DNA of 64,000 bases from Eubacterium sp. (GTDB lineage Bacteria; Bacillota; Clostridia; Lachnospirales; Lachnospiraceae). A model generated the notes under the pieces. The model was not told the DNA's origin and made no database searches. It saw only the letters and a program-made list of their open reading frames with translations. Positions within the stretch are counted from its first letter, which is position 1. Each line of letters opens with the position of its first letter. Both the position numbers and the translations under genes were made by a program. The DNA is taken from the NCBI GenBank assembly GCA_017619835.1, contig JAFZRN010000007.1, positions 1 to 64,000 on the forward strand, read 5' to 3'. Of the stretch, positions 41,768-60,028 are shown piece after piece.

Positions 41768-42805
41768 TTATTCTCCGGAAATGTCTTCCTCAGCCTCAGT
41801 AATCGAGTCAGCAACTTCTTCTGCCGCCTCAGAAACTTCCTCTTCGGCTTCTGCGACTTCTTCCACAGTATCATGGGCAGCTTCTTCAGTCTCTTCAACC
41901 GCCTTAGAAACAGTCTCAACAGCATCCGTCGGCTCAGCCATCTCATCTTGAGGCTCCTCATCAACATCGGATGCTTCTTCAGTCTTTGTATCGTCTTCGA
42001 CATCATTTCCAGCCTCAGCATCGCCTTCAGATTGTTCTCCAGCCTCAGCATCGCCCTCTGCAGATTCCCCACCCTCAGCAGCTTCCCCATACGGCTGGTA
42101 TGGCTCGTAGCTTGCGTTCATAGCCTTCTTGTTACGATTGGACGCAACAAAGATGATAATGATAGCAGCCACAATTATAACAAATATCAGCGAAAGCGCT
42201 GCGATGATAAGAGGCCAGTTAATGATAGAAAACTCCGCATGCATTCCCTCGCCCGGCTTAACCCTGAGCATATCCCACTCAAGCGTCCTGCCGCCATCGA
42301 GAACATTGTGCGCATTAGAATTCTTTGCCGGCGAAGGAACTTTAAGAACAAACTTCATATATCCGCCCGACTTCTCAAATTCATCATAATATGCAGCATC
42401 CTCTTCCGATTCCTCGGAATCAGGAAGGAAATTGTAGTCAAATGTGTAATTGAAGCCATCTTTTACAATGCTTATTTCTTCATTCTCCGAAAATGTTCCG
42501 GCCTCGGTACCGCTCATCTCACCTGAGAGGTTGTCTATCTCAAGATCCTTCTTCCCAATAATATAGCCGGCATATCCGTCCTCTGAATACTCCTGGCACT
42601 CCCAGCCTGCTTCTTTCAGACGATCCATACTTTCCTTCATGTCATCAGCATCATAAAGACTATCTTCTGATGTATTGACAGCATAAGTAATTGTCAGATC
42701 AGCCTTTCCATTTCTCTTGATCTCAACCTCAGTGTTGTACCTCATACAACCGGCCAGGCCCATCATAATCGCTAGCATGACCACAACCACATAAAACTTC
42801 TTCAT
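41768..42805 (-). CDS. LppM-like lipoprotein with membrane helix and acidic tail
   Basis: A 345-residue envelope protein. The start at 42805 (MKKFYVVVVMLAIMMGLAGC) follows AAAGGATTTAGTTTT; an ATG six codons upstream lacks a ribosome site. LAGC is a lipobox, with Cys20 as the lipidation site. The exported domain (about 21-215) has the NTEVEIKRNGKADLTITYAV opening seen in LppM/DUF3153-type proteins. A membrane helix lies at about 220-245 (LIIAALSLIFVIIVAAIIII). The rest is a long Glu/Ala/Asp-rich tail of about 90 residues, like the acidic tail of the 703-residue protein. The function is unknown. It lies 20 bases after the last giant paralogue and may be cotranscribed. Confidence 0.72.
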   Translation of the reverse strand: MKKFYVVVVMLAIMMGLAGCMRYNTEVEIKRNGKADLTITYAVNTSEDSLYDADDMKESMDRLKEAGWECQEYSEDGYAGYIIGKKDLEIDNLSGEMSGTEAGTFSENEEISIVKDGFNYTFDYNFLPDSEESEEDAAYYDEFEKSGGYMKFVLKVPSPAKNSNAHNVLDGGRTLEWDMLRVKPGEGMHAEFSIINWPLIIAALSLIFVIIVAAIIIIFVASNRNKKAMNASYEPYQPYGEAAEGGESAEGDAEAGEQSEGDAEAGNDVEDDTKTEEASDVDEEPQDEMAEPTDAVETVSKAVEETEEAAHDTVEEVAEAEEEVSEAAEEVADSITEAEEDISGE

Positions 42806-42825
42806 AAAACTAAATCCTTTCATTC

Positions 42826-45393
42826 TTACTTAACGGTTACTTTTATTTTCTTGGTAATACCGTTCTGAGCGTAGACGTATATGTCGCACTTGCCTTTGCC
42901 GACTGCTTTGATAACGCCCTTGTTGCTGACGGTTGCAACGGCTGTATCCGTACTCTCATACTGGATTGCACGGTGCTTCTTAACCTTAAGCTTCTTGCTT
43001 GCTGCTTTCTGCTTTGCCTTAAGCTTAAATGTCTTGCCTGTTTTAAGTGAAACTTTATTCTTCTTAGCCTTAGTTGTCAGGCTCTTGGCATTACCGACCT
43101 TACCGCCTGTCGTTGCTGCATGGATTGTTTTTGATGTCGAAAGAACCTTTCCGTCTTTATCAACCGCAACAATGAGGTATTTATAATATGTACCTTTCTT
43201 AAGCTTCTTCTGGGTAAATGTCGTCTTGGACACTACCTTTATCTTCTGGTACTTATTCTTATTACCGCACTTATTTCCATAGATATAATATGATGCTGCT
43301 CCTGCAACCTTCTTCCATGTAAGCTTTACTGAATTCTTTGTAACCTTGGATGCTTTAGCTTGTAACGTTGCGAAATCATTTCCAGAAGGATCGTTATCAT
43401 CCGGAAGTGTTGTGATCACTGCCTCTACATCTTCAATCGGATTTCCGGGTGAAACTGTTCCGGGCTCAGGAGTTGTTCCGGGAGCAGGTGTGGTTCCGGG
43501 CTCAGGTGTCGTACCGGGCTCAGGTGTAGCTCCGGGTTCCGGTGACTCTCCAGGCCCAGGAGTCGAATCAGGCGTTGGAGATGCATCGGGTGTAGAGCTT
43601 CCCTCGGGTGTTGGCGTTACATCCGGGGTCGGTGTAGTCTCCCCCTCCTTAACGATTTTTACTATTTGAACCGGATTTCCGTCAGCATCAACAATACATC
43701 TTTTATCGTAATCAAATTTTCCATCTTCCGGAATGATAATTTCAGAACCATCCTTAATCTTTATATCACGCGCATATAATGGCACAAACCAAACCGCTTC
43801 TATATAAAGATTTCCATCAATAGTAAGTGTATATGGCCAAGAAACTATTATTCCCGAAACACCTTTAATATTCACATCTCCTTTTGTTACAACGTTTAAA
43901 TCCCCAGCGCAATAGATTGCTTCTTCATTATCGTCCACATCTAATACTGCATTTTCCAGATATAACGTCTTTGTTTCAGGATCATATTTTCCTTTACCTG
44001 ATAAAAGCCCCTGAATATCGTCACTCGTATCATGAGAAAGCTTTTCACCACCGACATATATCGGATACATATCCTTTATATCTACATATATTGCAAACTG
44101 ATCATCATCAGTCAGAAAATGTTTTTTATCATCACTTATATGACTTGCCGAAGGAGCTATAGAATCTATAACATAACCATAGTCGGGATGGATTATCAAT
44201 TCTCCTCCGACAGTAACTGCTTCTGCATCAGCATGTGCAGAAAAATCTCCATTTATTTTTATATCTTTTTCCGCACTGATACAATATTTTCGTCCGGTAT
44301 TTCTACATTGTCCATCTACAATGATATTTCCCTTGCTAAAAATACATATTGCATCACTATAATGTGTGTATGCTCTCAAAGAATGATCTTTCTTAATCAC
44401 AATGTCATCTTTTACATAGACTCCATATGATTTAAAATATTTAATATTTACATCTCCGTCTATTGTAAGACTCTTTTGGCAAATGATTCCGTAAGCCACA
44501 CCTTCAGCATCTATATCCATCTTACCACTGATTTTCAGATCATCATCCGATTCAATCAATGCATCTGTACAGTCATGATCAAACTTTGCACCTTCACCCC
44601 AATAAAGAGTTTTTGTCGAAGAATTATAAGATACTGTACCACCGGTTATTCCAGGGATTTTATTATAATTTTTTGATGTTACCTGAACGCCACCTACTTT
44701 TATACCATACACTGTAAAACCGATTTTAAACTTTGTTATGGGTGTTAAATCAGAATCAGAATAATAATATATAGAGTTTCCATCAGTAATATATGAATAT
44801 ATATCCGGTTCAATAAACCTTAAACCTTGACTTAAATTAAACTCGGCCGCTCTAACGGAAGTAGATTCATTATCAACCACATATGTCCCATCAATAAACT
44901 CAATTTTATCTGCCCAAAGAGTTCTATGACTTGACTCCTTAGTTGTAAATGAGCTGGTTCCGTTAACAAATTCCACTCCGGCATTTTCGGCATATATAGC
45001 TTCTCCGCTGGTAGTAATGTCAAAATCACCATTAAGTTTCAGATCAGCCTGAGAATAGATACCATACAGCGTTTTAGGAAAATTAAGCACTGCCTTACCG
45101 GTTATCGTAATGGTACCAATACCTGAACCAACTTTCACTAATGGCTCCGAACTGGTAGTATTAGAACTTGCGGAAACATTTTCAAAATTCAACGTTTTAC
45201 TCGCGGGATCATAAGATACAGTTCCCGAGCCAAAACCGGGGATATTTCCCTTATTTGCATCGGTAACCTGGGTACCCTTAATCCAGATGTCATACTTTGT
45301 TTCCCCCGCATGAACATCCGGCGCAGTATTAACACCGAAAATGACTGCCATAACAAACAGTATCGAAACAACCACTTTAACTGTTCTTTTCAT
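42826..45393 (-). CDS. Giant secreted paralogue 1 (855 aa): 3 beta-helix modules, TP linker, fn3, Big_2
   Basis: The smallest of five tandem paralogues. Signal peptide 1-29 (ending DVHA), then three modules starting near residues 33, 228 and 442. Each begins with a Y-x-I/L-x-V-G-x-x-V-T...I-P-G header ([20 protein letters not shown]) followed by strand-turn repeats such as [19 protein letters not shown]. These suggest right-handed beta-helices. A Pro/Glu/Thr-rich linker (about 586-650) leads to a fibronectin III domain (about 665-755) and Big_2 (about 760-855) with a strongly basic end. No LPxTG or transmembrane segment is present. A role in surface binding is inference. It is the last paralogue in transcription order. 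Confidence 0.75.
42835..43400 (-). repeat. Fn3-Big_2 tail cassette, copy 1 of 5 (direct repeats)
   Basis: About 570 bases encoding the C-terminal tail recur with very high identity near 45465-46030, 49494-50070, 52787-53375 and 56762-57340. [19 protein letters not shown] is shared by four of the five, with one substitution in the last. These are long direct repeats that could recombine. Confidence 0.85.
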
Positions 45394-45422
45394 AAAAATA
45401 CTTTTCCCTTCTTAACATTTTT

Positions 45423-45445
45423 GTAATGGGGTCAAGCCCCATTAC
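45423..45445. repeat. REP-like palindrome, copy 5, GTAATG-arm form (paralogue 1 / 2 junction)
   Basis: GTAAT arms around GGGGTCAAGCCCC, followed by AAAAGTGTTACA as in copy 4. The 64-base gap between the two paralogues consists largely of this repeat. Confidence 0.88.
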
Positions 45446-45457
45446 AAAAGTGTTACA

Positions 45458-48400
45458 TTATTTAACGGTTACTTTAATCTTCTTTGTTATACCATTCTGA
45501 GCATATACGTATATGTCGCACTTACCCTTGCCGACTGCTTTGATCTTGCCGCTTGAGTTTACTGTTGCGACCGCGGGATTCGTGCTCTCGTACTGGATTG
45601 CACGGTGTTTCTTAACCTTAAGCTTCTTGCTTGCTGCTTTCTGCTTTGCTTTAAGCTTAAATGTCTTGCCCTTCTTGAGTGTAACCTTATTCTTCTTAGC
45701 CTTGGTCGTAATGCTCTTTGCATTGCCGACCTTACCGCCAAGAGTTGCTGCGTGGATAGTCTTCGATGTCGAAAGAACTTTTCCATCCTTATCAACCGCA
45801 ACGATAAGATACTTATAATATGTGCCCTTCTTAAGCTTCTTCTGGGTAAATGTCGTCTTGGACACAACCTTTATCCTCTTATACTTATTCTTTACTCCAC
45901 ACTTATTTCCATAGATATAATATGACTTAGCTCCGGCAACCTTCTTCCATGTAAGCTTGATGGAATTCTTGGTAACCTTGGATGCTTTTGCCTGAAGTGT
46001 AGCAAAGTCACTACCTGCAGGATCGTCGTCATTTGGAAGTGCGAGGATAACTGCCTCAACATCTTCTATCGTATTTCCGGGTGAAACCGTTCCGGGTTCA
46101 GGAGTAGTTCCGGGTGTAGGTGTTGAGCCAGGTGTAGGAGTAGCCTCCGCCTTCTTACCAATCTTTACTATCTTTGCAGGATTTCCGTCTTTATCGACAA
46201 TAGTCTCCTGAGTCTTATCGAACTTTCCACCTTCAGGGATAAGGATCTCATAACCATCTGATAGTTCGAAATCATTAGCAGTAATTGCTTGGCCATCTTT
46301 CATCTCAATATATAAGCTTCCATCAACAGTAAGTATTCCTGTAATATAGATTCCAATACTGCTTGTAGTATTTATAATTTTACAATCGCCCTTGGTAACA
46401 ACTTTCAGATCAATTAATGAATCGATACAGCTATACCAAACATCATTAATGACCGCATCTTCAAGATATAACGTTTTATCTGCCGGTTTATAAGAGCCCT
46501 TTCCTGAAGCAAGACCTAATATATTATCTTTTGATTCAGAAGTTATCTTCTTTCCACCAACATATACCAGATATAAATAATTAATTTCAACCTGTTTTGC
46601 CACTATATCATCAGCTGTCAAAAACTTCTTTTTATCATCACTTAAATGAGTTGCTGACGCGACTTTATCATAATAGCTTCCTCTGATAATGCCGTAATTC
46701 GGGTCAATCGAGACAGTGCCACCAACAGATATAGCTTCACCAGAACTACGTGCTTCTACTTCACAAGCAATTTTGAAATCATTTACAACCCTGATACCAA
46801 ATTTATCTCCTTCACCATCAATATAATTTGCCGAATCCATATTTATGGAACCATCTACATATATTCCGGTTTCGCGTCCAATTCCCCTTATATTACCTTC
46901 TTCACAAATAAATATATTCTTCTTTGTACGGATACCAGTTCCGTTACTTGCATTTGTAGCAGTACCGATCAAATATGCATAAGTACCGGGCTTAATTTCA
47001 ATATCTCCATTAGCAAATACACCATATGTATCAGCTTTAACTCTTATCAAACCATTTATTGTAAGCTTATTACATACGATTCCATAATGTGCCTTGTTAT
47101 CATTCAAAACCATTCCGCCGGATATAGTAAGATCATCATCAGAATCTATCAAGGCATATGTACTGGTATTCTTTAATTTACAAGTATTGCTCCAATATAA
47201 AGTTTTAGTAACAGGATCATAAGAAGCCGTTCCACCATACACACCGGGAATAGCATTACAGTTTTTAGATGTAATCTGAACGCCTCCAACCTTGAGATTA
47301 TACTTTTCGGGTCCGATTGTAACCTCAGAAACAGGGGATCCTGAAGAAACGATTGAATTCTGAGAGCTATCGAAAACGCCATCCGACGGTTCAAGTATTT
47401 TAATTCCATCTTCCAATTCAAGACCAAATGAGTAAATAGCATAATGCGGCGAGCTGAAGCTATGTTCTCCGTCTATAACCTTTATACTATTAGCATCAAT
47501 ACAAATTCCCAAATAAAAATCCGTTCTAAAATGTGTCTCTCCGGATTCAAACGTTACTTTAACGGCATAAATCGCAGAATTATCAACAGTAATGTCAAAT
47601 ATTCCGGAAATGATAATATCTTTATACGAATAAAATCCATAAGTACAATTCTGACAATCTATCGTAGCATTTCCTGTAATCCTAAGATCCTGAATATTTG
47701 ATTGTACGATTGCAGATTTAGAAGCAGACGAATCACAATTTACATTATCAAAAAACAGAGTATTTGAATATGGATTATAGGATACCGTTCCGCCATCAAA
47801 ATCATAGATGTCAAACCTATTTCTATTCGTTACCTGGGTATCCATTACATAAAGATCATAATTTTGTAATGCTTCTCCTACTTCAACATATTTAAGTCTA
47901 TTAGATTCATAATCTTTATAAAAGTAATTAAGTTCAGAATTACTGGTTACTTTACCATCAGAAGGATAAAGAATACTAACTTTAGAATCTATAATAATCA
48001 TTTGATCAGCAAAAACCGCATTAGCAAATGAAGAACTATCATAAGTATGGGCTATTATATAGCCTCCGTCAAAATAACAGCTTCCATTGGTATGAATGCC
48101 ATAATATTTTCCTAAACATTCAATATTACCATCCACAATATAGAAATCATTTTTACAGAAAACAGCAGCATCTCCATATGGAGTATCTATACATGATTGA
48201 CCACCTGAAAACTGAATGCTTCCATCTGATGAAATACATTCTAACGAATTAGAATTTGAAGTTCTTATTTTAAAGTTTCCATTAAAATCTATATCTTTAG
48301 AGCTAAAAATAGCGGTCGTACTACTATATTCATTAATGTTACAGCTACCTTTGATCGTAAGGTTTTCAACCTCAGAATATATTAGGCATTGCATATTGGG

Positions 48401-49405
48401 GTGATTTGTTTTATCAGGATTTTCTTTTAGGCCATCAACTCCGGTAACATTATTCAGAGTAAGAGTTTTAGCCACAGGATTATAAGATGCCGTACCACCT
48501 GAAACAGGAATATTATCTTTGTTTGCTGCTGTAACCTGATGTTTTCCAACCCATAAAGGATATGTCACAGAAGATGCACTCTGAATACTTATATTCTTAG
48601 CATCCTTAAAAAAATTATCAACTATTTTTGTACCATCCAGACTTAATAATGAACCTTGAGGTAATATAATAAGCTTCGGGTCTATATCAATACCGCTTCC
48701 GGCATATAATGTTTTATCAGAAGTAAGAGAACCACCATTCAGATAAAAATGGCCATATTCTGAATAGATACCATATTCCCCGTAATTAATTGCAACATTT
48801 CCGCCATTAAGATAAAAATCTTCGTTAAGATATATTGGTGAACGATAAGTATTCGAAAAATCGATAACAGCTAATAATGAGCCATCATTAATGACAATAT
48901 CACCATAGGAAGTGATAACAGAATCATCATCAGAACGAGCTCTGACACTTCCCGAATTAAGAACAAAACCACAACTATAAAAAGCACCGGATTTACCAAA
49001 AATATCAATATATGTATCTGAATCATCAATTGTCAGAATTCCATCATCAACATAAATCGCCGTATATACTGCAGAATCTGCAGGAGTAAACTTACCCTTT
49101 ATTGTCAGATCACCCTCTTTGAAATATATAAGAGCATCCCTGTCAAAATTCGGGTTATACATATACGTTTTCTGAACTCCGGTGACATTGCCGGAAAACC
49201 GAAGAACATGATTCACAGGATCATAGGATGCTTTTCCTCCTACTATTCCCGGGATGTTGTCCTTATTGGCGCTTGTGACCTGTACCTCTCCTACCCAGAG
49301 CTTGTACTTTACTTCTTCCGCCTTAACTGTCGATGCAGACTTCATGCAGAATATGCATGTGAAAACGAACAATAAAGCTGCCACTATCCTAACTGTTTTA
49401 TTCAT
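45458..49405 (-). CDS. Giant secreted paralogue 2 (1315 aa): 5 beta-helix modules, TP linker, fn3, Big_2
   Basis: The signal peptide (1-29, MNKTVRIVAALLFVFTCIFC) has the same first module as paralogue 4. Five module headers lie near residues 33, 281, 516, 701 and 940 (KYKLWVGEVQVTSANKD; LWVGKHQVTAANKD; YDLYVMDTQVTNRNR; YNLKVGGVQITSKNC; VYVGGKKITSESKD). The interiors are runs of short strands ending in DG/NG turns (ILTIDDSDTYIDIFGKSG). A short [14 protein letters not shown] linker precedes the fn3 and Big_2 domains. It has the same length as paralogue 4 and an identical 29-base leader, so the pair looks like a recent whole-gene duplication that has since diverged inside. No catalytic motif is recognised. 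Confidence 0.75.
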   Translation of the reverse strand: MNKTVRIVAALLFVFTCIFCMKSASTVKAEEVKYKLWVGEVQVTSANKDNIPGIVGGKASYDPVNHVLRFSGNVTGVQKTYMYNPNFDRDALIYFKEGDLTIKGKFTPADSAVYTAIYVDDGILTIDDSDTYIDIFGKSGAFYSCGFVLNSGSVRARSDDDSVITSYGDIVINDGSLLAVIDFSNTYRSPIYLNEDFYLNGGNVAINYGEYGIYSEYGHFYLNGGSLTSDKTLYAGSGIDIDPKLIILPQGSLLSLDGTKIVDNFFKDAKNISIQSASSVTYPLWVGKHQVTAANKDNIPVSGGTASYNPVAKTLTLNNVTGVDGLKENPDKTNHPNMQCLIYSEVENLTIKGSCNINEYSSTTAIFSSKDIDFNGNFKIRTSNSNSLECISSDGSIQFSGGQSCIDTPYGDAAVFCKNDFYIVDGNIECLGKYYGIHTNGSCYFDGGYIIAHTYDSSSFANAVFADQMIIIDSKVSILYPSDGKVTSNSELNYFYKDYESNRLKYVEVGEALQNYDLYVMDTQVTNRNRFDIYDFDGGTVSYNPYSNTLFFDNVNCDSSASKSAIVQSNIQDLRITGNATIDCQNCTYGFYSYKDIIISGIFDITVDNSAIYAVKVTFESGETHFRTDFYLGICIDANSIKVIDGEHSFSSPHYAIYSFGLELEDGIKILEPSDGVFDSSQNSIVSSGSPVSEVTIGPEKYNLKVGGVQITSKNCNAIPGVYGGTASYDPVTKTLYWSNTCKLKNTSTYALIDSDDDLTISGGMVLNDNKAHYGIVCNKLTINGLIRVKADTYGVFANGDIEIKPGTYAYLIGTATNASNGTGIRTKKNIFICEEGNIRGIGRETGIYVDGSINMDSANYIDGEGDKFGIRVVNDFKIACEVEARSSGEAISVGGTVSIDPNYGIIRGSYYDKVASATHLSDDKKKFLTADDIVAKQVEINYLYLVYVGGKKITSESKDNILGLASGKGSYKPADKTLYLEDAVINDVWYSCIDSLIDLKVVTKGDCKIINTTSSIGIYITGILTVDGSLYIEMKDGQAITANDFELSDGYEILIPEGGKFDKTQETIVDKDGNPAKIVKIGKKAEATPTPGSTPTPGTTPEPGTVSPGNTIEDVEAVILALPNDDDPAGSDFATLQAKASKVTKNSIKLTWKKVAGAKSYYIYGNKCGVKNKYKRIKVVSKTTFTQKKLKKGTYYKYLIVAVDKDGKVLSTSKTIHAATLGGKVGNAKSITTKAKKNKVTLKKGKTFKLKAKQKAASKKLKVKKHRAIQYESTNPAVATVNSSGKIKAVGKGKCDIYVYAQNGITKKIKVTVK

Positions 49406-49434
49406 GAATACCTATCTCCCTTCTTCACCTTTCA
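49406..49434 (-). repeat. 29-base leader shared with 56728-56756
   Basis: The 29 bases directly before the ATG of paralogue 2 are identical to those before paralogue 4 (56728-56756) and contain the ribosome-binding site (GGGAGATAGG). This supports duplication of gene plus leader. Confidence 0.85.
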
Positions 49435-49449
49435 AAATGTGTACAAATT

Positions 49450-49468
49450 GTGTCCGGGGTCTGACCCC
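49450..49468. repeat. REP-like palindrome, copy 6 (paralogue 2 / 3 junction)
   Basis: GTGTCC + GGGGTCTGACCCC with an imperfect outer AATTGTG / CACAATT pair extending the hairpin to about 49446-49477. Confidence 0.88.
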
Positions 49469-49486
49469 ATTCACAATTTTTTCACA

Positions 49487-52400
49487 TTATTTTACAGTGA
49501 CTTTAATCTTCTTTGTTATACCGTTCTGGGCATATACGTATATGTCGCACTTACCCTTGCCGACTGCTTTGATCTTGCCGCTGGTATTTACTGTTGCAAC
49601 AGCGGGATTCGTGCTCTCGTACTGGATCGGGCGATGCTTCTTAACCTTAAGCTTCTTGTTTGCTGCCTTCTGCTTTGCTTTAAGCTTAAATGTCTTGCCC
49701 TTCTTCAGCGTTACCTTATTCTTCTTAGCTTTCGTTGTCAGGCTCTTTGCGTTACCGACCTTTCCGCCGGTCGTTGCTGCATGGATTGTCTTTGATGTTG
49801 AGAGAACCTTTCCATCCTTATCAACCGCAACTATTAAGTACTTATAATATGTGCCCTTCTTAAGCTTCTTCTGGGTAAATGTCGTCTTGGACACTACCTT
49901 TATCCTCTTATACTTATTCTTTACTCCACACTTATTACCATAGATATAATATGATGCTGCTCCTTCTACCTTCTTCCATGTAAGCTTGATGGAATTCTTG
50001 GTAACCTTGGATGCCTTTGCCTGAAGAGTAGCAAAGTCACTGCCTGCAGGATCGTTATCATTTGGAAGTGCGAGGATAACTGCCTCAACATCTTCTATCG
50101 TATTTCCGGGTGAAACCGTTCCGGGTTCAGGAGTAGTTCCGGGTGTAGGTGTTGAGCCAGGTGCAGGAGTAGTTCCCGGCGTCGGTGTCGGTGTAACATC
50201 TGACTTCTTACCAATCTTAACTATCTTCGCCGGTTTACCATCTTTATCTACGATACAATATTTATCATTATCATACTTTCCACCCTCAGGGATAAGGATC
50301 TCACAACCATTCTTTAGTTCAAAATCAAATGTATATATTGCGAATTCATTTGCCTCTGCATAAAGATTTCCATCAACCGTAAGCTTAGAAGCAAATATTG
50401 CCCCATTATTATCAGCAATAACACTTACATCACCTTTAGTCACAATATTTAAGTCCAAATATGAATCAATGCAAGCCCCGTTATGTTTTAAAACCGCATT
50501 ATCAAGGTTAAGTGTACATGTATCAGCATCAAAAGTACCTTTTCCGGACGTAAGTCCCTGGATGTCATTTCTGGTATCATAAGTCAACTTTTTACCACAG
50601 ACTAATATACAATACTTGTCTTCAAGATACACCTTTTTTGCGACGTCATTTCCGGAAGTCAAAAAATGCTTTTTATCATCACTCAAATGAGTTCCGTCGG
50701 TCGCCTCATCATAATATGAATCTTTCCTAAAACCATATTCGCGGTTAATTGTAATTTCTCCACCGACAGAGACGGCCTCGTTTTTGCTTTCCGCTTCTAA
50801 CATACATATATTTTTAAAGTCTTTTCCGGCCCTGACACCATACTGGTCTCCTTGAGCTCTGACAATTGAATTATCTTTACAATCAATTGAATTCTTTGCA
50901 TATATTCCTATATTACAACCATATCCGTTAAGACAGCCGGCTACATCAATATCACCCTGACAGTAAATTCCCTTTCCATCACTGTCTTCCATAGCTGAAG
51001 CATCTAAAAATCCATCCTCGCTTATAACAAGATCATCATTTGTATATGATCCAAATAATTTGGCATCAACATGAATATCTCCATCTATCGTAAGTCCTTT
51101 AAGACTTCTGATTCCAAACTGAGCCCTTGTATCACGCAGATACATGTTTCCCTTTATCGTAAGATCATCTTCTGTATCAATTATTGCAAATGTGCTGCTA
51201 TTATCGATCTTTGAATAATCTTCAAAGGTGAGCGTCTTTGTTTCAGGATCATATGATGCGCTGCCATCATATACGCTGGGGATGGCTTTACAGTTTGCGG
51301 TTGTTACCTGTACGCCGCCAACTCTGAGGCTGTAATCCTTTGGACCGATTTTGACTTTATTAGCTTTAGTATTATCGCTTTTTTTTATCCCACAATCAGT
51401 ACTATCAAAATAACCGCCTTCAGGTTCAAGAATATACATTCCATCATTTAGGTTGAAATCATATGTACTAATAGCGCTATAATAATCGTTCTGATTTGCG
51501 TTAAATATATATGTACCATCCAAAAACTCAGTACGATATGCCATGAAAGACATTCCACTATATCCAGAACTAGTAAATGTGCAGTTTCCGCCTGCAAATA
51601 ATACTTCACATCCCATAGAACCAACCACATAATCTTTAGTGGTAATATCAAAATCACCTAATATCTTTAATTTACCAGGAGAATAAAAACCATGATTAAT
51701 GCCCGAATAAATCAATGTTGCTTTACCCATAATAGTTAAAGTTTCAATTTTGGTTCCGGCATCTACAATAGGATCCGGACTAGATATATTCGAGTTATCG
51801 GAGACATTTTCAAAATACAGTGTATTGCTGGATGGATCAAAAGAAACATGTCCGGATGGGAAGGCTTTTATATCAAAACGATTATAGTTATTAACCGGAA
51901 CACCCATAACCTTAAGGCCATAATTCTCTTCCATCACACCGATTTCCGCTTTTTGAACACGTTGTGAAGATGAATTAAAGATATGGTATTCGGAAGTCAC
52001 ACATTTGACTTCTCCGCCGGACGGATTAAAAATATGCGTATCACCATTGATATTTATTCCTTTAGATGATGTAATCGCATCGCCAAACGATGAATCAGTT
52101 CCTTCGGCAGTTACATATCCCCCCTCAAAGTATACTTTTCCGGTTGCTAAAATGCCTTCATAATCACCCTTTGTATCAATAAATCCGTCCACGACAATTA
52201 AGTCATCACAAGATATTCCAACACCTGACCCACTGATTGCAGATATATTAATGTCACCGCTTTTAATATAAATGTCACCTAAAGCTCTGATTCCGTAGCA
52301 ATCATATAAAGTCGAAGTATTATTAACGTCTATACTTCCGTCAAGTATAATATCTTCGGTACTATAAATAACAGAAGTAAGATTTGAAGCAGATATATTA

Positions 52401-52708
52401 CAATATCCTTTAATGGTAAGAACATCTAAGGTAGTATAAATCGAATATTTACTAAGATTGGAAGTATCCGTCTTTGTTCCATCAACTTTAGTAACATCCT
52501 TCAGCGTAAGAGTTTGTGTTTCAGGATCATAGGATGCCGATCCATCTAAAACAGGAATATTATCCATGTTTTCGCTGGTGACCTGATGCTTACCAACCCA
52601 AAGATCGTACTTTGTCTCTTCAGCATTAACGCTTGAAATCGGTTTAACACTAAAAACAAACGTGAAAACGATCAAAAATGCTACTGCTAACCTTACTATT
52701 CTCTTCAT
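49487..52708 (-). CDS. Giant secreted paralogue 3 (1073 aa): 4 beta-helix modules, TP linker, fn3, Big_2
   Basis: The start at 52708 (MKRIVRLAVAFLIVF) has AAGG in AAGGTATTGGTT ahead of it; a frame seven residues longer is less plausible because it breaks the signal peptide. Signal cleavage is near VNA at 29. Four module headers lie near 33, 263, 458 and 690 (KYDLWVGKHQVTSENMD; YGLKVMGVPVNNYNR; YSLRVGGVQVTTANC; YCILVCGKKLTYDTR). The header types map one-to-one to those of paralogue 2 minus its first module, so modules appear to have been gained or lost as units. The TP linker, fn3 and Big_2 tail follow. Ligand unknown. Confidence 0.75.
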   Translation of the reverse strand: MKRIVRLAVAFLIVFTFVFSVKPISSVNAEETKYDLWVGKHQVTSENMDNIPVLDGSASYDPETQTLTLKDVTKVDGTKTDTSNLSKYSIYTTLDVLTIKGYCNISASNLTSVIYSTEDIILDGSIDVNNTSTLYDCYGIRALGDIYIKSGDINISAISGSGVGISCDDLIVVDGFIDTKGDYEGILATGKVYFEGGYVTAEGTDSSFGDAITSSKGININGDTHIFNPSGGEVKCVTSEYHIFNSSSQRVQKAEIGVMEENYGLKVMGVPVNNYNRFDIKAFPSGHVSFDPSSNTLYFENVSDNSNISSPDPIVDAGTKIETLTIMGKATLIYSGINHGFYSPGKLKILGDFDITTKDYVVGSMGCEVLFAGGNCTFTSSGYSGMSFMAYRTEFLDGTYIFNANQNDYYSAISTYDFNLNDGMYILEPEGGYFDSTDCGIKKSDNTKANKVKIGPKDYSLRVGGVQVTTANCKAIPSVYDGSASYDPETKTLTFEDYSKIDNSSTFAIIDTEDDLTIKGNMYLRDTRAQFGIRSLKGLTIDGDIHVDAKLFGSYTNDDLVISEDGFLDASAMEDSDGKGIYCQGDIDVAGCLNGYGCNIGIYAKNSIDCKDNSIVRAQGDQYGVRAGKDFKNICMLEAESKNEAVSVGGEITINREYGFRKDSYYDEATDGTHLSDDKKHFLTSGNDVAKKVYLEDKYCILVCGKKLTYDTRNDIQGLTSGKGTFDADTCTLNLDNAVLKHNGACIDSYLDLNIVTKGDVSVIADNNGAIFASKLTVDGNLYAEANEFAIYTFDFELKNGCEILIPEGGKYDNDKYCIVDKDGKPAKIVKIGKKSDVTPTPTPGTTPAPGSTPTPGTTPEPGTVSPGNTIEDVEAVILALPNDNDPAGSDFATLQAKASKVTKNSIKLTWKKVEGAASYYIYGNKCGVKNKYKRIKVVSKTTFTQKKLKKGTYYKYLIVAVDKDGKVLSTSKTIHAATTGGKVGNAKSLTTKAKKNKVTLKKGKTFKLKAKQKAANKKLKVKKHRPIQYESTNPAVATVNTSGKIKAVGKGKCDIYVYAQNGITKKIKVTVK

Positions 52709-52742
52709 AACCAATACCTTTCCCTTCAATTGTGTCCGAATT

Positions 52743-52767
52743 GTGTCCGGGGTCAGACCCCGGACAC
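52743..52767. repeat. REP-like palindrome, copy 7, full-length form (paralogue 3 / 4 junction)
   Basis: Perfect GTGTCC + GGGGTCAGACCCC + GGACAC. It is preceded by a partial duplicate (TGTGTCCGAAT then TGTGTCCGG), as though the left arm had been copied. Confidence 0.9.
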
Positions 52768-52779
52768 ATTTTTTTCACA

Positions 52780-55700
52780 TTATTTTACAGTGACTTTGAT
52801 CTTCTTCGTTATACCGTTCTGGGCATATACGTATACGTAGCACGTTCCTTTGCCGACTGCCTTGATCCTGCCATTAGGATTGACGGTTGCAACGGCGGGA
52901 TTCGTGCTCTCGTACTGGATCGCACGGTGCTTCTTAACCTTAAGCTTCTTGCTTGCAGCCTTCTGCTTTGCTTTAAGCTTAAATGTCTTGCCCTTCTTCA
53001 GCGTTACCTTATTCTTCTTAGCCTTGGTTGTAATGCTCTTTGCATTACCGACCTTTCCGCCTGTCGTTGCTGCGTGGATAGTCTTCGAGGTCGAAAGAAC
53101 CTTTCCATCCTTATCAACCGCAACGATAAGATACTTATAGTATGTACCCTTCTTAAGCTTCTTTTGGGTAAATGTCGTCTTGGACACAACCTTTATCTTC
53201 TTATACTTGTTCTTTACACCGCACTTATTACCATAGATATAATACGATTTAGCCCCCGCCACCTTCTTCCAGGTAAGCTTGATGGAATTCTTGGTAACCT
53301 TGGATGCTTTTGCCTGAAGTGTTGCAAAGTCACTGCCTGCGGGATCGTTATCATTTGGAAGTGCGAGAATAACTGCCTCAACCTCTTCTATCGTATTGCC
53401 TGCTGATACTGTTCCCGGCTCGGGTGTTGTTCCGGGAGCAGGTGAAGTTCCGGGCTCAGGAGATGCATCCGCTTTCTTTTCAATCTTAACGATCTTAGCA
53501 GGATTACCGTCCTTATCAACGATGCAACGTTTTTCCTTATCAAATTTTCCACCTTCAGGCTCTACTATAACGGAACCATTTTTAAGTTCGAAATCATCCG
53601 CTTCTATTGCTACTTTTTCTGATTTGACATAGAAATTACCGTCTATTGTCAGTTTTCCATACACACCCATAGCATAATTATGTGAAGAGATTATCTTAAC
53701 ATCACCCTTAGTTACGATATTCAGATCGTCTACTGTATCAAGACATGTCTCCCATGAATCTGTTATCTCGGCATTTTCCAGGTAAAGCGTATGAGTATTT
53801 ACATCATATGATCCCTTACCTGACTTGAGCCCCTTTATATCATCCTTTGTTTCAGCAGTAATCTTCTTTCCGCCTACATAGATAAAATAAAGGTCATCAA
53901 TCTCAACTTTCTTTGCAACTTTATTATCAGCTGTAAGGAACTGTTTTTTATCATCACTCAAATGAGTTGCTGACGTTACGATATCGTATTCATGTCTTTT
54001 TACAATCCCATAGCTCGGATCAAGTGCGACTGTTCCGCCAACATATATAGCCTTGTTCTTACTAATGGCATTGACACTACCACAGATTGCGAAATCATTT
54101 CCAACATTAATACCAAAATCGTCACCGGTTCCACTGCAGGAGGCTTTTCTAGCAATACTTATCGAGCCACTAGCTTCAATACCTGTTGAAGCGCCTTTAC
54201 CTGTTACACCGCTACCGTAGTTTTCACATTTTAAGTTTTTACAATATATACCACATCCGGCATTATCTTTTAATCCTTCAGATGAAAGATATGCTTCTTC
54301 TCGAAACTCCAGATCATTTGTAACATAAGTACCATATGTACCAGCTGTAACGTATATCACACCATCTACTATCAGATTTTTACATCTGATACCACAGTAA
54401 GCCTTCTGATCATTTAAATGCATTCTGCCACTGATTGTCAGTTCATCATCAGCCTGGATCATCGCAGTTTTGCTATTATTTTTCAGAGTAGCATTTTCGT
54501 TCCAATAAAGAGTTTTTGTCGCCGGAAAATACTCAGCCGAACCATTATATAATCCGGGGATATTTTTACAGTTCTTGGAAGTGATCTGAACGCCTCCGAT
54601 CTTAAGATCATAAACCTTAGGGCCGATCTCTACTGAATCGCAAGTATAATTTCCAACTGCAACAGTACTTAGAGATTTAATATATACAGCATTTTCGGGA
54701 TAAAGAATATACATACCCGAATCCAGAGTAAAATCGTTGCTTGTTTCAAACGCTTTATCATCTCCGCCAAAAGAATAATGGCCATCAATTATAGAAACAG
54801 ACGGAGCCGAAACACCAATTGAGTGTTCGCCTGATGCATAGTATTGTCCTTCTCCCGATAAGAATATCACTTCGTCGTTAGATATTATTGCATATTTTTT
54901 AGTACGGATTGTAAAATCACCTGATATATATAATTTATTATGATTAAGGGAATGGAAACCATAATAATATTCCGAATAATCTAGATCAGCATTTCCGGTA
55001 ATTGTAAGACCATCAATATATGACTCTACCAAAGGATCTGTAGTATTTGAATTCGAATCAAAACCTGTCACATTATCAAAATTCAGAATATTCTCATCTG
55101 GATCATAAGAAACTATTCCGGAATCAAATCCGGGAATATCAAAACGATTAATTGAATTTACCGGAGTCGCTTTAACCATAAGATTATAGTGTTCCGGTTC
55201 AACTCCTATCTCGGCATATGTAAGATTATTATTTGAACTGTCTACAAGATAATGTCCATATCCAGGCCCATATGTATACTCACTTGTACCCGAAGGATAT
55301 CTTACCTCTACTCCTGAATAGAAGTTTATATCAACATCTGCATAAACAGCATACCCATGACTAGCATCACATGAAGATGCATTAACATATCCACCATCAA
55401 AATATATTTCATTAAGAGAATGTAAAGCAATAGTTTTTCCAGTAGCTTCTAAATATCCATCATTAATATAAATATTATTTTCGGCTAATAATGCATCATT
55501 TTTCGGAGCATCTATTATTAAATGTCCTCCCCAGATTTTGATATCTTCATTTGAATATAAAACAGGCCACGCAGAACCAGAATCCATCTTAATTTTGATA
55601 TTTCCGTTAATTATCAGATCACCTTTACATCTTATTCCGGTAATGGCTTCTGAATCATATATATCGCAATCGCCTATTACAGAAAGCGATTCTTCACCTG

Positions 55701-56727
55701 AATAAACTAAACAACTAAGATATGTGGCATCAGGATCAACATGTGATTCATCAACTCCGGTCACACCTTCAAATTTAAGAACTCTCATAGCCGGATCATA
55801 GGATGCAGTACCACCTTTTACGCCGGGAATGTCATCCTTATTTGCTCCTGTTACCTGATGTTTTCCAACCCATACATTGTATTTAATAGATTCTCCATCT
55901 TCTATTGCAATACTTGAAGGAGTATCTCCAAAATAATCTACAATTTTAGTTCCATCTTCACTGAGCTTTGCACCGAGAGGCTGTGAAATACAAAGACCGG
56001 GAGCGATATCAATTCCTCCTCCTGCATATATTGTATTATCACAATAAACAGAACCGCCATTTATATAAAAATGTCCATATTCAGAGTCAATACCGGTTTT
56101 ACCACCATTTGTAGCTATGCTTCCTCCATTAATATATAAATCTCCGGCATATACACAAATCGCAGATCCATTAGAATTATTTCTTACAGCAAGTATACTT
56201 CCGTTATTAACTACCATTCCGCCATAAGAAATGATAGCGGTTCTATTCTTTGAAGTAGATCTTAAGGTTCCGTTATTAAGCGTAAACCCTTCAGTAGCAT
56301 AAATGCCTTCATTTTTAGAGCCCACAATAATCGTAGTTGATGCCCCATCAATTGTAAGAGCACCCTGATATAAATATATAGCATTACTAATATCATTATT
56401 ACTTGGAGTAAAGGTTCCGGTTATAGTAAGATCTGAATATTCACAACATATCAGACAGTCAGATTCACCATAACTACTATAATTATGCGTACCTTTTACA
56501 CCGGTTACTGAACCGGAAAAATTAAGAACATGTTTCACCGGATCGTAGCTTGCAGTTCCGCCCACTACTCCAGGGATGTTGTCCTTGTTTTCACTTGTGA
56601 CCTGTACTTCTCCTACCCAGAGCTTGTACTTAACTTCCTCTGCCTTAACTGTTGATGCGGTCTTCATACAGAAAATATATGTGAAGACGAACAATAAAGC
56701 TGCTACTACCCTAACTGTCTTTTTCAT
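52780..56727 (-). CDS. Giant secreted paralogue 4 (1315 aa): 5 beta-helix modules, TP linker, fn3, Big_2
   Basis: The signal peptide (MKKTVRVVAALLFVFTYIFC) is near-identical to that of paralogue 2, and total length is equal. Five headers (KYKLWVGEVQVTSENKD; YNVWVGKHQVTGANKD; YNLMVKATPVNSINR; YDLKIGGVQITSKNC; FIYVGGKKITAETKD) occur at positions matching paralogue 2. The module interiors differ markedly, which suggests duplication followed by diversification of exposed loops. The tail is [19 protein letters not shown], then fn3, then Big_2 ending [20 protein letters not shown]. It starts 30 bases after paralogue 5 stops, so it is surely cotranscribed with it. Confidence 0.75.
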   Translation of the reverse strand: MKKTVRVVAALLFVFTYIFCMKTASTVKAEEVKYKLWVGEVQVTSENKDNIPGVVGGTASYDPVKHVLNFSGSVTGVKGTHNYSSYGESDCLICCEYSDLTITGTFTPSNNDISNAIYLYQGALTIDGASTTIIVGSKNEGIYATEGFTLNNGTLRSTSKNRTAIISYGGMVVNNGSILAVRNNSNGSAICVYAGDLYINGGSIATNGGKTGIDSEYGHFYINGGSVYCDNTIYAGGGIDIAPGLCISQPLGAKLSEDGTKIVDYFGDTPSSIAIEDGESIKYNVWVGKHQVTGANKDDIPGVKGGTASYDPAMRVLKFEGVTGVDESHVDPDATYLSCLVYSGEESLSVIGDCDIYDSEAITGIRCKGDLIINGNIKIKMDSGSAWPVLYSNEDIKIWGGHLIIDAPKNDALLAENNIYINDGYLEATGKTIALHSLNEIYFDGGYVNASSCDASHGYAVYADVDINFYSGVEVRYPSGTSEYTYGPGYGHYLVDSSNNNLTYAEIGVEPEHYNLMVKATPVNSINRFDIPGFDSGIVSYDPDENILNFDNVTGFDSNSNTTDPLVESYIDGLTITGNADLDYSEYYYGFHSLNHNKLYISGDFTIRTKKYAIISNDEVIFLSGEGQYYASGEHSIGVSAPSVSIIDGHYSFGGDDKAFETSNDFTLDSGMYILYPENAVYIKSLSTVAVGNYTCDSVEIGPKVYDLKIGGVQITSKNCKNIPGLYNGSAEYFPATKTLYWNENATLKNNSKTAMIQADDELTISGRMHLNDQKAYCGIRCKNLIVDGVIYVTAGTYGTYVTNDLEFREEAYLSSEGLKDNAGCGIYCKNLKCENYGSGVTGKGASTGIEASGSISIARKASCSGTGDDFGINVGNDFAICGSVNAISKNKAIYVGGTVALDPSYGIVKRHEYDIVTSATHLSDDKKQFLTADNKVAKKVEIDDLYFIYVGGKKITAETKDDIKGLKSGKGSYDVNTHTLYLENAEITDSWETCLDTVDDLNIVTKGDVKIISSHNYAMGVYGKLTIDGNFYVKSEKVAIEADDFELKNGSVIVEPEGGKFDKEKRCIVDKDGNPAKIVKIEKKADASPEPGTSPAPGTTPEPGTVSAGNTIEEVEAVILALPNDNDPAGSDFATLQAKASKVTKNSIKLTWKKVAGAKSYYIYGNKCGVKNKYKKIKVVSKTTFTQKKLKKGTYYKYLIVAVDKDGKVLSTSKTIHAATTGGKVGNAKSITTKAKKNKVTLKKGKTFKLKAKQKAASKKLKVKKHRAIQYESTNPAVATVNPNGRIKAVGKGTCYVYVYAQNGITKKIKVTVK

Positions 56728-56757
56728 GAATACCTATCTCCCTTCTTCACCTTTCAT

Positions 56758-59700
56758 TTACTTGACGGTTACTTTGATTTTTATCGTGATACCGTTTTGA
56801 GCATAAACGTATACGTAGCACTTGCCCTTGCCAACTGCTTTGACGACACCCTTGGTGCTTACTGTGGCTACGGCTGTATTTGTGCTCTCGTACTGGATTG
56901 CACGGTGCTTCTTAACCTTAAGCTTCTTGCTTGCAGCCTTCTGCTTTGCTTTAAGCTTAAATTTCTTTCCCTTCTTGAGTGTAACCTTATTCTTCTTAGC
57001 CTTAGTCGATATGCTCTTTACATTACCGACTTTGCCGCCGGTCGTTGCCGCATGGATTGTCTTTGATGTTGAAAGAACCTTTCCAGCCTTATCAACCGCA
57101 ACGATCAGATATTTATAGTATGTGCCCTTCTTTAGCTTCTTTTGGGTAAATGTCGTCTTGGACACCACCTTTATCTTTTTATATTTATTCTTATTTCCGC
57201 ACTTATTTCCATAGATATAGTACGATTTAGCTCCGGCAACCTTCTTCCATGAAAGCTTTATTGAATTCTTTGTAACCTTTGATGCCTTAGCCTGGAGAGT
57301 AGCAAAGTCACTGCCTGCTGGATCGTTATCATTCGGAAGTGCAAGGATAACTGCTTCAACGTCTTCTATTGTATTTCCGGGTGAAACTGTTCCCGGTTCC
57401 GGAGTCGTTCCCGGTGCAGGTGTTGAACCGGGCTCGGAAGATGCAGCCGGTGTGGGTGTAGCGACCTCTTTCTTAACAATCTTAACTATCGTTGCAGGAT
57501 TTCCATCCTTATCAACGATACATTTCTGTTCCTTATCAAATCTTCCGCCTTCGGGAATGAGGAGCTCTGAGTCGTTTAAGAGTTCGAAATCATATGCATG
57601 AATTGCATGATCATCCAATGTCTCTATATAAAGATTTCCATCGACTGTAAGTTTTCCTTTGATGTTAAGGCCATAATACCGTCTGGTTTTTGTAACTAAA
57701 TTTACATCGCCCTTAGTAACAAGATTCAGATCATCCAAGGTAATGATACATTCGTCTTTTTCATCATTAATTACAGCATTATCAAGATAAAGAGTATGTG
57801 TATCAGCATCGTAAGAGCCTTTACCGGACTTAAGTCCTGCTATATCATTCCTGGTCTCATAAGTTATCTTCTCGCCATTAATATAGACGCCGTATTTGTC
57901 GCCGATCTCAACTATCTTTGCAACAGAATTATCGGCAGCCAGGAAATGCTTTTTATCATCACTAAAATGGGTTGCTGAAATCTCACTATCATAATTTAAC
58001 GCCTTGACAATTCCTACATAGGGGCTGAATTCCATGGTTCCGCCAAATGATATGGCCTCGCCTTCACCATGTGCATAGACATCACAATCGGCTTTGAAAT
58101 CATTTCCAATCTTGATGCCATAGTCAGTGCCGGTTCCCTCAATTTTATTGGAGGAATCTGTATAAATGGAGCCGGTTACAGATATACCTGTCGTTACTCC
58201 GCCACCAACTAAAGTACCATTTTTGCCGACATCAATATTACCACCGGTGCTAATGCCCTTTGCGTCATTTGTCTGCATGGCATATCCATACAGGTTTGCA
58301 TCGGGCTTTATATCAATACCACTTATTGTAAAAACACCGCATTCTTTAGCATTAACAATTACATTTCCATCAACTGTAAGCTTTTTGCAGGCAATTCCAT
58401 AAGTAGCATTTGTATCCATGAGGCGGATTTTTCCGGTAATGGTAAGTTCATCACCGGACTCGATCATAGCGTGATCACTGGTATTCTCGAATTTGGCTCC
58501 TTGACCAAAATTCAAAGTCTTTGTTTGGGGATCAAAAGAAGCTTCTCCGGTGACACCGGGAAGGTTATTGCGGTTTTTAGATGTTACCTGGACACCGCTG
58601 AGTTTGAGATCGTATTTATCGGGGCCGATGGTAACTTTTTTGGGATATGTACCATCGCTGTTAACTAATGTCCATTCATCAGCATCGAAAATAGCACCAT
58701 TCGGGGATTGGATCTTGATACCTTCATCAAGCGTAAGACTACTTGTTTCAATAGCCTTTTCATCACCCTCGAAAATGTGTTCGCCGTCTTTTATAACAAC
58801 ACTATTAGATTGAATAGCAACCGATTCATTTGAGATCAGATGGCAAGTTCCGGATTCAAATGTAACTTCCGAAGCATAAATAGAATTATGTTTGGAAGAT
58901 ATATAAAAATTACCGGAGACCTTAAGCTTATTATTATTACAGTTAATACCATCGATACAATTTGGATAATCAAAATGAGCATTTCCGGCTATAATAAGAT
59001 CATGATTACGAGAACTTACAATGGGATTCGATATTGAATTGGTTGAACTACCATATACATCATCAAAGAAAAGCGTATTGGTATCAGGATCGTATGTAAC
59101 TATTCCTTCTTCAAATATATATATACCAAATCGATTTCTATTTGTTATCTGTTCTCCCAGAATAGAAATACCATATGATCCTACCTTTTCTTCTATTGTT
59201 GCTGATTCAACACCTTTTGACGGATCAGTATCATATATATAATTATGAGAAGTATATTCAGTCACATTGCCGGATGCAGGTGTAGAAACATATACTTTGG
59301 GATCAAGAGAGATCACTCCATCGGCATAGATAGCTATACCTTTTTCACCAAAACCAGCAGCTTGAGTATATGAAAAAATATACCCCCCGCTTATATATAT
59401 ATCTCCTTCAGAATAAATACCATAGAACGCAGCAGTTAGCCTAAGATTTCCGCCCTTAATATATATGTCGCCTTTACTATGGAGCATAGCATCTGTATTC
59501 GAGCAGTCACAATTTAGTTGTCCGCCCAGAATTATAAGATCTTTTCCGGAAGAGATGCCATAATTGGGATAATCTTCATCATAAGGTCCTGATATCCACA
59601 CTAAAAAGTTTCCATTTAAATTCAGATTCTGAGTACAAACGAAGCCTTCTGAAGCATATTGATTTTTTATATCACAGCTGCCGGTTATTGTAAGATCATC

Positions 59701-59985
59701 AATTTCAGAATAGATAAGACACTTAAAGTTAGGATCATCAGGTTCTACTTTTAACCCATTTACACCGGTAACATTATTAAGCTTCAGAGTTTTGGTAGCA
59801 GGATTATAGGATGCACTTCCACTTTTTACCGGAATATTATCCTTGTTGGCGCTTGTAACCTGCACTTCACCAAGCCAAAGATCATACTTTGTCTCTTCTG
59901 CATTTACGACAGGCGCTGTCTTCATACAGAAAATGCATGCCATTACCAGAACAAATGCAGCTATTGTCCTAACTATATTTTTCAT
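56758..59985 (-). CDS. Giant secreted paralogue 5 (1075 aa): 4 beta-helix modules, TP linker, fn3, Big_2
   Basis: The first gene of the array in transcription order. Signal peptide MKNIVRTIAAFVLVMACIFC ends near NA at 29. Four headers ([62 protein letters not shown]) repeat the usual order. The last module ends in the conserved ELLIPEGGRFDKEQKCIVDK segment before a [13 protein letters not shown] linker, fn3 and Big_2. The tail differs slightly from the others (GITIKIKVTVK). GGGGGATACG precedes the ATG. A REP-like palindrome separates it from the GTPase gene upstream. Confidence 0.75.
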   Translation of the reverse strand: MKNIVRTIAAFVLVMACIFCMKTAPVVNAEETKYDLWLGEVQVTSANKDNIPVKSGSASYNPATKTLKLNNVTGVNGLKVEPDDPNFKCLIYSEIDDLTITGSCDIKNQYASEGFVCTQNLNLNGNFLVWISGPYDEDYPNYGISSGKDLIILGGQLNCDCSNTDAMLHSKGDIYIKGGNLRLTAAFYGIYSEGDIYISGGYIFSYTQAAGFGEKGIAIYADGVISLDPKVYVSTPASGNVTEYTSHNYIYDTDPSKGVESATIEEKVGSYGISILGEQITNRNRFGIYIFEEGIVTYDPDTNTLFFDDVYGSSTNSISNPIVSSRNHDLIIAGNAHFDYPNCIDGINCNNNKLKVSGNFYISSKHNSIYASEVTFESGTCHLISNESVAIQSNSVVIKDGEHIFEGDEKAIETSSLTLDEGIKIQSPNGAIFDADEWTLVNSDGTYPKKVTIGPDKYDLKLSGVQVTSKNRNNLPGVTGEASFDPQTKTLNFGQGAKFENTSDHAMIESGDELTITGKIRLMDTNATYGIACKKLTVDGNVIVNAKECGVFTISGIDIKPDANLYGYAMQTNDAKGISTGGNIDVGKNGTLVGGGVTTGISVTGSIYTDSSNKIEGTGTDYGIKIGNDFKADCDVYAHGEGEAISFGGTMEFSPYVGIVKALNYDSEISATHFSDDKKHFLAADNSVAKIVEIGDKYGVYINGEKITYETRNDIAGLKSGKGSYDADTHTLYLDNAVINDEKDECIITLDDLNLVTKGDVNLVTKTRRYYGLNIKGKLTVDGNLYIETLDDHAIHAYDFELLNDSELLIPEGGRFDKEQKCIVDKDGNPATIVKIVKKEVATPTPAASSEPGSTPAPGTTPEPGTVSPGNTIEDVEAVILALPNDNDPAGSDFATLQAKASKVTKNSIKLSWKKVAGAKSYYIYGNKCGNKNKYKKIKVVSKTTFTQKKLKKGTYYKYLIVAVDKAGKVLSTSKTIHAATTGGKVGNVKSISTKAKKNKVTLKKGKKFKLKAKQKAASKKLKVKKHRAIQYESTNTAVATVSTKGVVKAVGKGKCYVYVYAQNGITIKIKVTVK

Positions 59986-60028
59986 GAAAACGTATCCCCC
60001 TTCTTACGTTTCAAAATGTGTCCAAAAT

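Follow-up and report, generated by a model that had tools for sequence, protein, structure and literature searches.

A tandem array of five putative plant-polysaccharide adhesin genes with a common cationic C-terminal tail in a Eubacterium genome

The first 64,000 bp of contig JAFZRN010000007.1 of a Eubacterium sp. genome (assembly GCA_017619835.1; hereafter the window) contain, at 42826–59985, five codirectional open reading frames (ORFs) on the minus strand that fill about 17 kb and that we number g1 to g5 by rising coordinate, with transcription running from g5 to g1. All five proteins share one layout, in which a hydrophobic N-terminal stretch is followed by a run of modules, a Pro/Thr/Gly-rich linker and a tail of one FN3 and one Big_2 domain that ends in KVTVK. 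The locus raises the question of what a cell might do with five such paralogs, whose modules are 29–60% identical within a type whereas their last 202 residues are 89–96% identical. Both the gene set, with the lengths given in Table 1, and the contrast between divergent interiors and a near-constant tail had been pointed out in a sequence-only reading of the window, and both are borne out here. We favor the explanation that the genes encode duplicated plant-polysaccharide adhesins that would be held at the cell surface by their cationic tail without a recognized anchor, and we give this explanation as a whole a probability of roughly one-half.

Module types and the origin of the array

With a profile made from the window, 21 modules with a header are recognized in the array (3, 5, 4, 5 and 4 in g1 to g5), the same number that had been counted by eye in the sequence-only reading. 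In a search of the whole genome, the array modules have best-match E values of 4e-24 to 1e-60, and outside the array the genome yields just two module matches at E ≤ 0.01, both weak and both on contig C25 (1e-9 and 4e-5). The C25 protein, in locus L041, was missed when the module profile was run at E ≤ 1e-3 over 18 sources, having been listed earlier at 1e-9. A genome search with the whole of g4 reached 39 places, nine of them in the array; at the remaining 30, the match is confined to residues from 1059 onward, which comprise the tail and the approach to it.

In a tree of the 21 modules, types a, A, B, C and D each form one clade in 98–100% of 200 bootstrap trees, and protein identity between types is 17–34%. 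The order of types is constant from gene to gene (Table 1), as the sequence-only reading had it, although that reading recognized four header types and the tree splits a fifth, a, from A. Because each type is one clade, the types predate the gene duplications. The best explanation of these data is that whole genes were duplicated from one ancestral ABCD gene in a lineage-specific tandem expansion, a step that is part of the overall explanation and shares its probability. The gain and loss of modules proposed earlier fits as well, since one gain of a (in g2 and g4) and one loss of A (in g1) explain the module numbers.

The sequence-only reading had proposed that module shuffling diversifies the repertoire, with whole modules rearranged inside genes or from one gene to another. 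The variation in module number (3, 4 or 5) fits this view. The affinities of g2 are also mixed, with its modules A and B grouping with those of g5 (92/94 and 90/87, respectively) while its leader and module a resemble g4. This conflict is not significant, however: forcing g2 and g4 together gives p values in the approximately unbiased test (p-AU) of 0.17, 0.09 and 0.18 for A, B and C, and the D modules already fall together, weakly. Grouping a with A inside one gene, in turn, is rejected with p-AU of 1e-74 for g2 and 3e-5 for g4. Since the types are single clades in an invariant order, the a+A grouping is rejected and the gene–gene conflict is not significant, shuffling is not supported; we reject it as the main process and regard it as quite improbable.

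If duplication explains the modules, the uniformity of the tails calls for a second process. In codon alignments, modules of one type have 30–60% protein identity from gene to gene, compared with 89–96% for the tails. At fourfold-degenerate third positions of conserved codons, gene pairs differ at 0.57–0.68 of the sites in modules and at 0.28–0.51 in tails, and 334 of 886 such sites (0.38) differ in the pooled array tails. Silent sites in the tail are free to change, because comparison of the array with 23 other aligned tails of the genome gives differences at 3197 of 5087 sites (0.63; 0.52–0.73 by tail). This alignment comprises 28 of the genome's 29 tails and leaves out an ORF of 173 residues that lies close to the end of a contig. 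If purifying selection at the protein level were the sole cause, silent sites would have diverged as much as they have in the modules. The array tails are less diverged at these sites than the modules and were therefore most simply exchanged after module divergence, which suggests that gene conversion keeps them uniform; the g4–g5 pair shows the least of it. A similar trend is seen in five other tail genes in two clusters, where in all four comparisons the tail is less diverged at silent sites than the body (0.33/0.43, 0.48/0.66, 0.50/0.70 and 0.58/0.74, the final two being based on 20 and 23 codons of the body). These sets of neighboring tail genes lie in this genome at 1406–7776 of locus L044 and at 334–9985 of L052.

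A predicted β-solenoid and its candidate ligand

The g4 and g5 proteins score above the gathering cut-off of the Cthe_2159 family (PF14262), which places both in it (Table 1); g1, g2 and g3 probably belong as well, given their homology to g4 and g5. Taken singly, 5 of the 21 modules match Cthe_2159 at E ≤ 0.1. When the five module regions are combined into a profile, the solved chain 4peu/4phb is matched with an E value of 3.3e-4; 4phb carries the output label "Uncharacterized protein", and we take it to be Cthe_2159 itself. A profile match to the tapirin structure 6n2c is weak (E 0.0051 for the whole chain, i-Evalue 0.059 for the best stretch) and indicates no clear homology to the modules. 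Tapirins are cellulose-binding solenoid adhesins of Caldicellulosiruptor. A search with one congener protein, L109, found no solved relative, and NCBIfam yielded no match above cut-off.

Structure prediction, which had been suggested as a check on the solenoid fold, was run on the whole of g5 and gives an all-β repeat model, with a predicted local distance difference test score (pLDDT) that is mostly 80–97 in the modules and falls to about 55 at some of the junctions between modules. Together with the sequence relatives, this model suggests that the modules are β-solenoids that form a clostridial family next to Cthe_2159. The array proteins differ from Cthe_2159 in having three to five diverged modules each, with Y-x-L-x-V-G-like headers, as well as tandem genes and the FN3+Big_2 tail. 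In each of them, we also observe by eye a signal-peptide-like N terminus, comprising a hydrophobic helix and an A-x-A-like site, and the proteins are thus probably exported. The description of the array in the sequence-only reading as exported, solenoid-type and adhesive or glycan-binding has indirect support from the Cthe_2159 membership of g4 and g5, the 4peu/4phb match and the all-β model.

PMC6712302 describes the Cthe_2159 family as β-helical and as binding cellulose and polygalacturonic acid. By family resemblance, the ligand of the modules may be a plant cell-wall polysaccharide such as pectin or cellulose, and GH5 cellulase and CBM17/28 genes lying about 20 kb from the array provide a context that supports this plant-fiber assignment. 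In the cellulase region, at 12022–21539, two genes for GH5 cellulases with CBM17/28 flank a gene for a further CBM17/28 protein, and all three products end in BspA-type LRR_5. PMC6712302 also calls Cthe_2159 polysaccharide-lyase-like and similar to PL9, and a Pectate_lyase_5 domain occurs in another tail protein of the genome, so that solenoids cleaving pectin must be considered. No lyase family scores over its Pfam cut-off in any of the five array proteins, however, and we give such an enzymatic role very little credence.

The overall design of the proteins has a precedent in the fibrillar adhesins of Firmicutes, long proteins in which an adhesive solenoid precedes an Ig/FN3-type part; PMC9210967 lists a Cthe_2159-related solenoid cluster and Big_2-type clusters among them. 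At 855–1315 residues, with modules first and the FN3+Big_2 pair after them, the array proteins appear fibrillar-adhesin-like, with a putative adhesive role. They differ in lacking a recognized anchor and in having one FN3+Big_2 pair instead of a long stalk. In that paper, known anchors or sortase motifs are reported for only 846 of the 1,666 fibrillar-adhesin training proteins.

The cationic tail

The tail spans about 205 residues, of which about 22% are lysine, and has a net charge of +34 to +41 in the five array proteins. In the AlphaFold model of the g4 tail (Table 1), the FN3+Big_2 pair is rigid. The tail is found in 29 proteins of this genome, 24 of them outside the array, a set without three ORFs (two in L058, one in L059) whose matches are partial and not full C-terminal tails. 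It ends the protein in 28 of the 29, and in the other a single residue follows. Its net charge is +30 to +46 in all 29, and the remainder of the protein is acidic in all 28 that have one. Partner domains, scanned in 19 of the 24 non-array proteins, include GH10 with CBM9 (a GH10 xylanase), BspA-type LRR, GLUG, MBG and the Pectate_lyase_5 domain mentioned above. A tail scan of named genomes confirmed at least 176 relatives, the best 80 of which were kept. In loci of other genomes, the tail lies 0–3 residues from the C terminus in 82 of 86 ORFs and more than 30 residues from the end in the other four (an 87th ORF, which runs off its locus, is left out). Of the 76 tail ORFs longer than 350 residues, 74 have an acidic remainder. 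None of the five array proteins has an SLH, choline-binding or Gram-positive-anchor domain among its Pfam matches at E ≤ 1. In ten module-type proteins that we scanned, not all of which have the header, choline-binding repeats occur in six, SLH in one, LRR_5 in one, the tail in one (the C25 protein of this genome) and none of these in one.

We propose that the array proteins would be exported by Sec and that their three to five Cthe_2159-like β-solenoid modules would face outward and bind plant cell-wall polysaccharides. The FN3+Big_2 tail would bind anionic polymers of the wall non-covalently and so keep each protein on the cell that made it, thereby substituting for an LPXTG, SLH or choline-binding anchor. 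Whole-gene duplication and module divergence would provide the diversity, and gene conversion the uniformity of the tail. Anchoring is supported by the fixed position of the tail, the variety of its partners, the charge contrast and the surface domains found at that end in congener relatives. More tentatively, and with somewhat less confidence than in the array itself, the tail may be an undescribed sortase-independent retention module of gut and rumen Clostridia that docks dozens of acidic exoproteins with nothing else in common (a xylanase, LRR proteins and solenoid adhesins) to anionic wall polymers, with the array as its most expanded adhesin set, kept docking-compatible by conversion. We found no prior description of such C-terminal FN3/Ig-like anchoring in the open-license PubMed Central (PMC) literature, and "undescribed" is therefore a weak term. 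In its layout, the tail resembles M1-C of Methanobrevibacter ruminantium, which is a single conserved C-terminal domain on many large proteins of one genome (44 compared with 29 here). This likeness, a precedent for anchoring, is one of arrangement; M1-C is archaeal and Big_1-like. PMC2812497 describes it as an Ig-like domain of about 200 residues on 44 adhesin-like proteins that may attach them to the wall.

Several observations weigh against our explanation. Three of the five proteins are below the family cut-off: g1, g2 and g3 have no Cthe_2159 match listed at E ≤ 1 in Pfam. All listed fold-search matches lie in the FN3 and Big_2 domains, so the solenoid fold of the modules rests on sequence relatives and on the strands of the model, and the candidate ligand is drawn from the family. 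At silent sites, the g4 and g5 tails differ by 0.51, about as much as one non-array tail does (0.52). Localization of the proteins is putative; FN3 and Big_2 are generally regarded as spacers or stalks. Big_2 likewise appears as a stalk-type domain of fibrillar adhesins in PMC9210967. This genome has other anchors at hand, with two sortase matches and 21 choline-binding-repeat matches, and one kind of anchor does not preclude another; a marginal SLH match stands beside the tail in 2 of 10 scanned tail proteins of other genomes. Finally, in a sample of the family, 22 of 150 genomes have the tail, and 17 of the 21 others than this one have only one to four matches; because no more than 21 candidates per genome received a score, the high counts are minimum values.

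Two simpler patterns of tail distribution did not hold. A strict "many or none" distribution is hinted at within the genus and contradicted by the family sample. The notion that tail genomes lack choline-binding repeats is rejected both by this genome and by six relatives with at least five tails, which have 16–34 such matches.

The charge of the tail also suits a quite different role, in which the proteins are released and coat plant fiber, the modules and the tail both binding the substrate, so that the proteins would form a scaffold and the tail would not be an anchor. Pectin is anionic, and binding of the cationic tail to acidic pectin is equally possible; the tail is present on a GH10 xylanase, and the best-scoring structural match of its Big_2 domain is a Big_2–CBM56 pair (7r3t). 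Unlike what such release would suggest, congener module proteins bear choline-binding or SLH domains at the end where the tail would be, and many tail partners (LRR_5, GLUG and MBG) are of kinds often met on the surface of cells. We consider a released fiber scaffold unlikely and retain surface anchoring.

If surface anchoring is correct, the array would offer a tractable model of how gene duplication supplies a fiber-degrading gut Clostridium with a set of adhesins for plant walls, and the tail a general sortase-independent way of holding about 30 exoproteins of one cell at its surface. Family libraries show only Ig-like and FN3 domains here, and the combination of position, charge and FN3+Big_2 gives a sequence handle for candidate surface proteins.

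A few further tail proteins were observed. In the window itself, a 1598-residue protein outside the array (23980–28776) has the same cationic FN3+Big_2 tail and a He_PIG domain. Two tail proteins of other genomes, one of them Eubacterium uniforme ATCC 35992 (L170, 6174–8603, and L157, 6027–8597), combine LRRs, a marginal single SLH match and the tail. A 655-residue protein of a water-buffalo rumen Lachnospiraceae metagenome-assembled genome (L168, 1361–3328) has a header-like YNVWVNG start and the same C-terminal tail; it has no match to the module profile at E ≤ 1e-3, and its kinship to the modules is a resemblance by eye. Searches of the open-license PMC literature for surface proteins of Eubacterium uniforme and for β-solenoid fibrillar adhesins of Lachnospiraceae found no paper.

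Genomic setting and relatives

The four spacers from g1/g2 to g4/g5 measure 64, 81, 71 and 30 bp. Because these spacers are short and the gene for an LppM-domain protein starts 2 bp after g1, g5 to g1 and the LppM-domain gene are likely on one transcript. A scan for promoters and terminators gave fewer sites than in shuffled controls and was not used as evidence. The LppM-domain protein has, judged by eye, a lipobox-like start, one hydrophobic stretch and an acidic C terminus. Table 1 gives g3 as starting at an ATG; in the ORF list, the frame starts farther upstream, at a TTG (52729), and comprises 1080 residues.

Table 1. Features of the array and its flanks. Bit scores are for Cthe_2159 (cut-off 25.8); pTM, predicted template modeling score.
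Feature	Positions	Strand	Description
LppM-domain protein	41768–42823	−	starts 2 bp after g1; far flank of array
g1	42826–45393	−	855 aa; modules B-C-D, Pro/Thr/Gly-rich linker, FN3+Big_2 tail
g1 tail	42829–43446	−	FN3+Big_2; cationic
g1 module D	43636–44067	−	
g1 module C	44068–44709	−	
g1 module B	44710–45294	−	
g2	45458–49405	−	1315 aa; modules a-A-B-C-D, tail
g2 tail	45461–46078	−	FN3+Big_2; cationic
g2 module D	46142–46573	−	
g2 module C	46574–47302	−	
g2 module B	47303–47860	−	
g2 module A	47861–48562	−	
g2 module a	48563–49306	−	
g3	49487–52708	−	1073 aa; modules A-B-C-D, tail
g3 tail	49490–50107	−	FN3+Big_2; cationic
g3 module D	50195–50614	−	
g3 module C	50615–51334	−	
g3 module B	51335–51922	−	
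g3 module A	51923–52609	−	
g4	52780–56727	−	1315 aa; modules a-A-B-C-D, tail; 40.5 bits
g4 tail	52783–53403	−	FN3+Big_2; cationic; AlphaFold pLDDT 95.3, pTM 0.89
g4 module D	53464–53889	−	
g4 module C	53890–54612	−	
g4 module B	54613–55188	−	
g4 module A	55189–55881	−	
g4 module a	55882–56628	−	
g5	56758–59985	−	1075 aa; modules A-B-C-D, tail; 45.4 bits; AlphaFold pLDDT 80.4
g5 tail	56761–57378	−	FN3+Big_2; cationic
g5 module D	57460–57894	−	
g5 module C	57895–58614	−	
g5 module B	58615–59175	−	
g5 module A	59176–59886	−	
GTPase with DUF697-like part	60066–61283	−	upstream flank of array

The flanking GTPase is found in six close relatives at 78–88% identity. It adjoins the LppM gene in three of them (G020, G025 and G080, with gaps of 200, 93 and 92 bp). 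In G067, the order is Hsp90, GTPase, DUF4230, a 113-residue ORF and PALP, without LppM; G071 is similar with two extra ORFs, and in G029 other genes adjoin the GTPase. The array is absent from the GTPase site in all six; the assemblies are fragmented, so only this site is judged. On a different contig, G080 has a relative with three modules and the tail, and a broken relative occurs in G025. The simplest reading is that the array arose at this site, or was moved to it, within the lineage of the window.

The module-profile search of relatives that the sequence-only reading had recommended finds matches in 50 of 61 genomes of the genus at E ≤ 1e-5, many through one ORF of about 420–560 residues that matches the solenoid part only. 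In a sample of the order, five other genomes of 392 match at E ≤ 1e-15; at most seven candidates were scored per genome, so weak or further module genes may be missed. Single genes in other Clostridia have the same header modules, three in L110 (G080), L109 (G020) and L272 (G367) and four in L273 (G245), with L110 ending in the same FN3+Big_2 tail and L109 in LRR_5. These stretches have one module gene each instead of five: no second module gene occurs in six stretches from the five genomes of the order sample, and no further five-gene array among the genomes and stretches examined. No relative was confirmed in viral contigs, and a module-alignment scan of named genomes found none. The earlier statement that no described system has this layout must thus be qualified, as relatives and precedents exist, and it holds for the five-gene array within what was examined.

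A set of five paralogs without counterpart in the relatives examined, with diverging module interiors on a base kept alike, could also form a surface coat whose variability protects against phage, protozoa or antibodies of the host, in which divergent modules face outward from a constant base. The cell wall protein CwpV of C. difficile is reportedly a comparable case. The genes look co-transcribed, however, and not alternately expressed, and crude dN/dS in the modules is below 1 (0.11–0.66 where finite, with dS near saturation). These results make a variable coat doubtful, and we prefer the plant-polysaccharide adhesin assignment.

The G+C content per 2 kb is 0.36–0.40 across most of 44001–60000 and 0.44–0.49 in the flanks of the array; the cellulase region is likewise low (0.37–0.41). 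A REP-like palindrome on GGGGTCNGACCCC, often with TGTGTCC/GGACACA arms, occurs exactly at 8454, 11461, 29598, 49456, 52749 and 60035 of the window and in variant form at 35090, 45428 and 62041. The genome has 46 exact sites, compared with none for a reversed control pattern. The palindrome or a variant is present in four of the five spacers between the GTPase gene and g1; the 30-bp g5–g4 spacer is without it, although the final 29 bases of that spacer match the end of the g3–g2 spacer.

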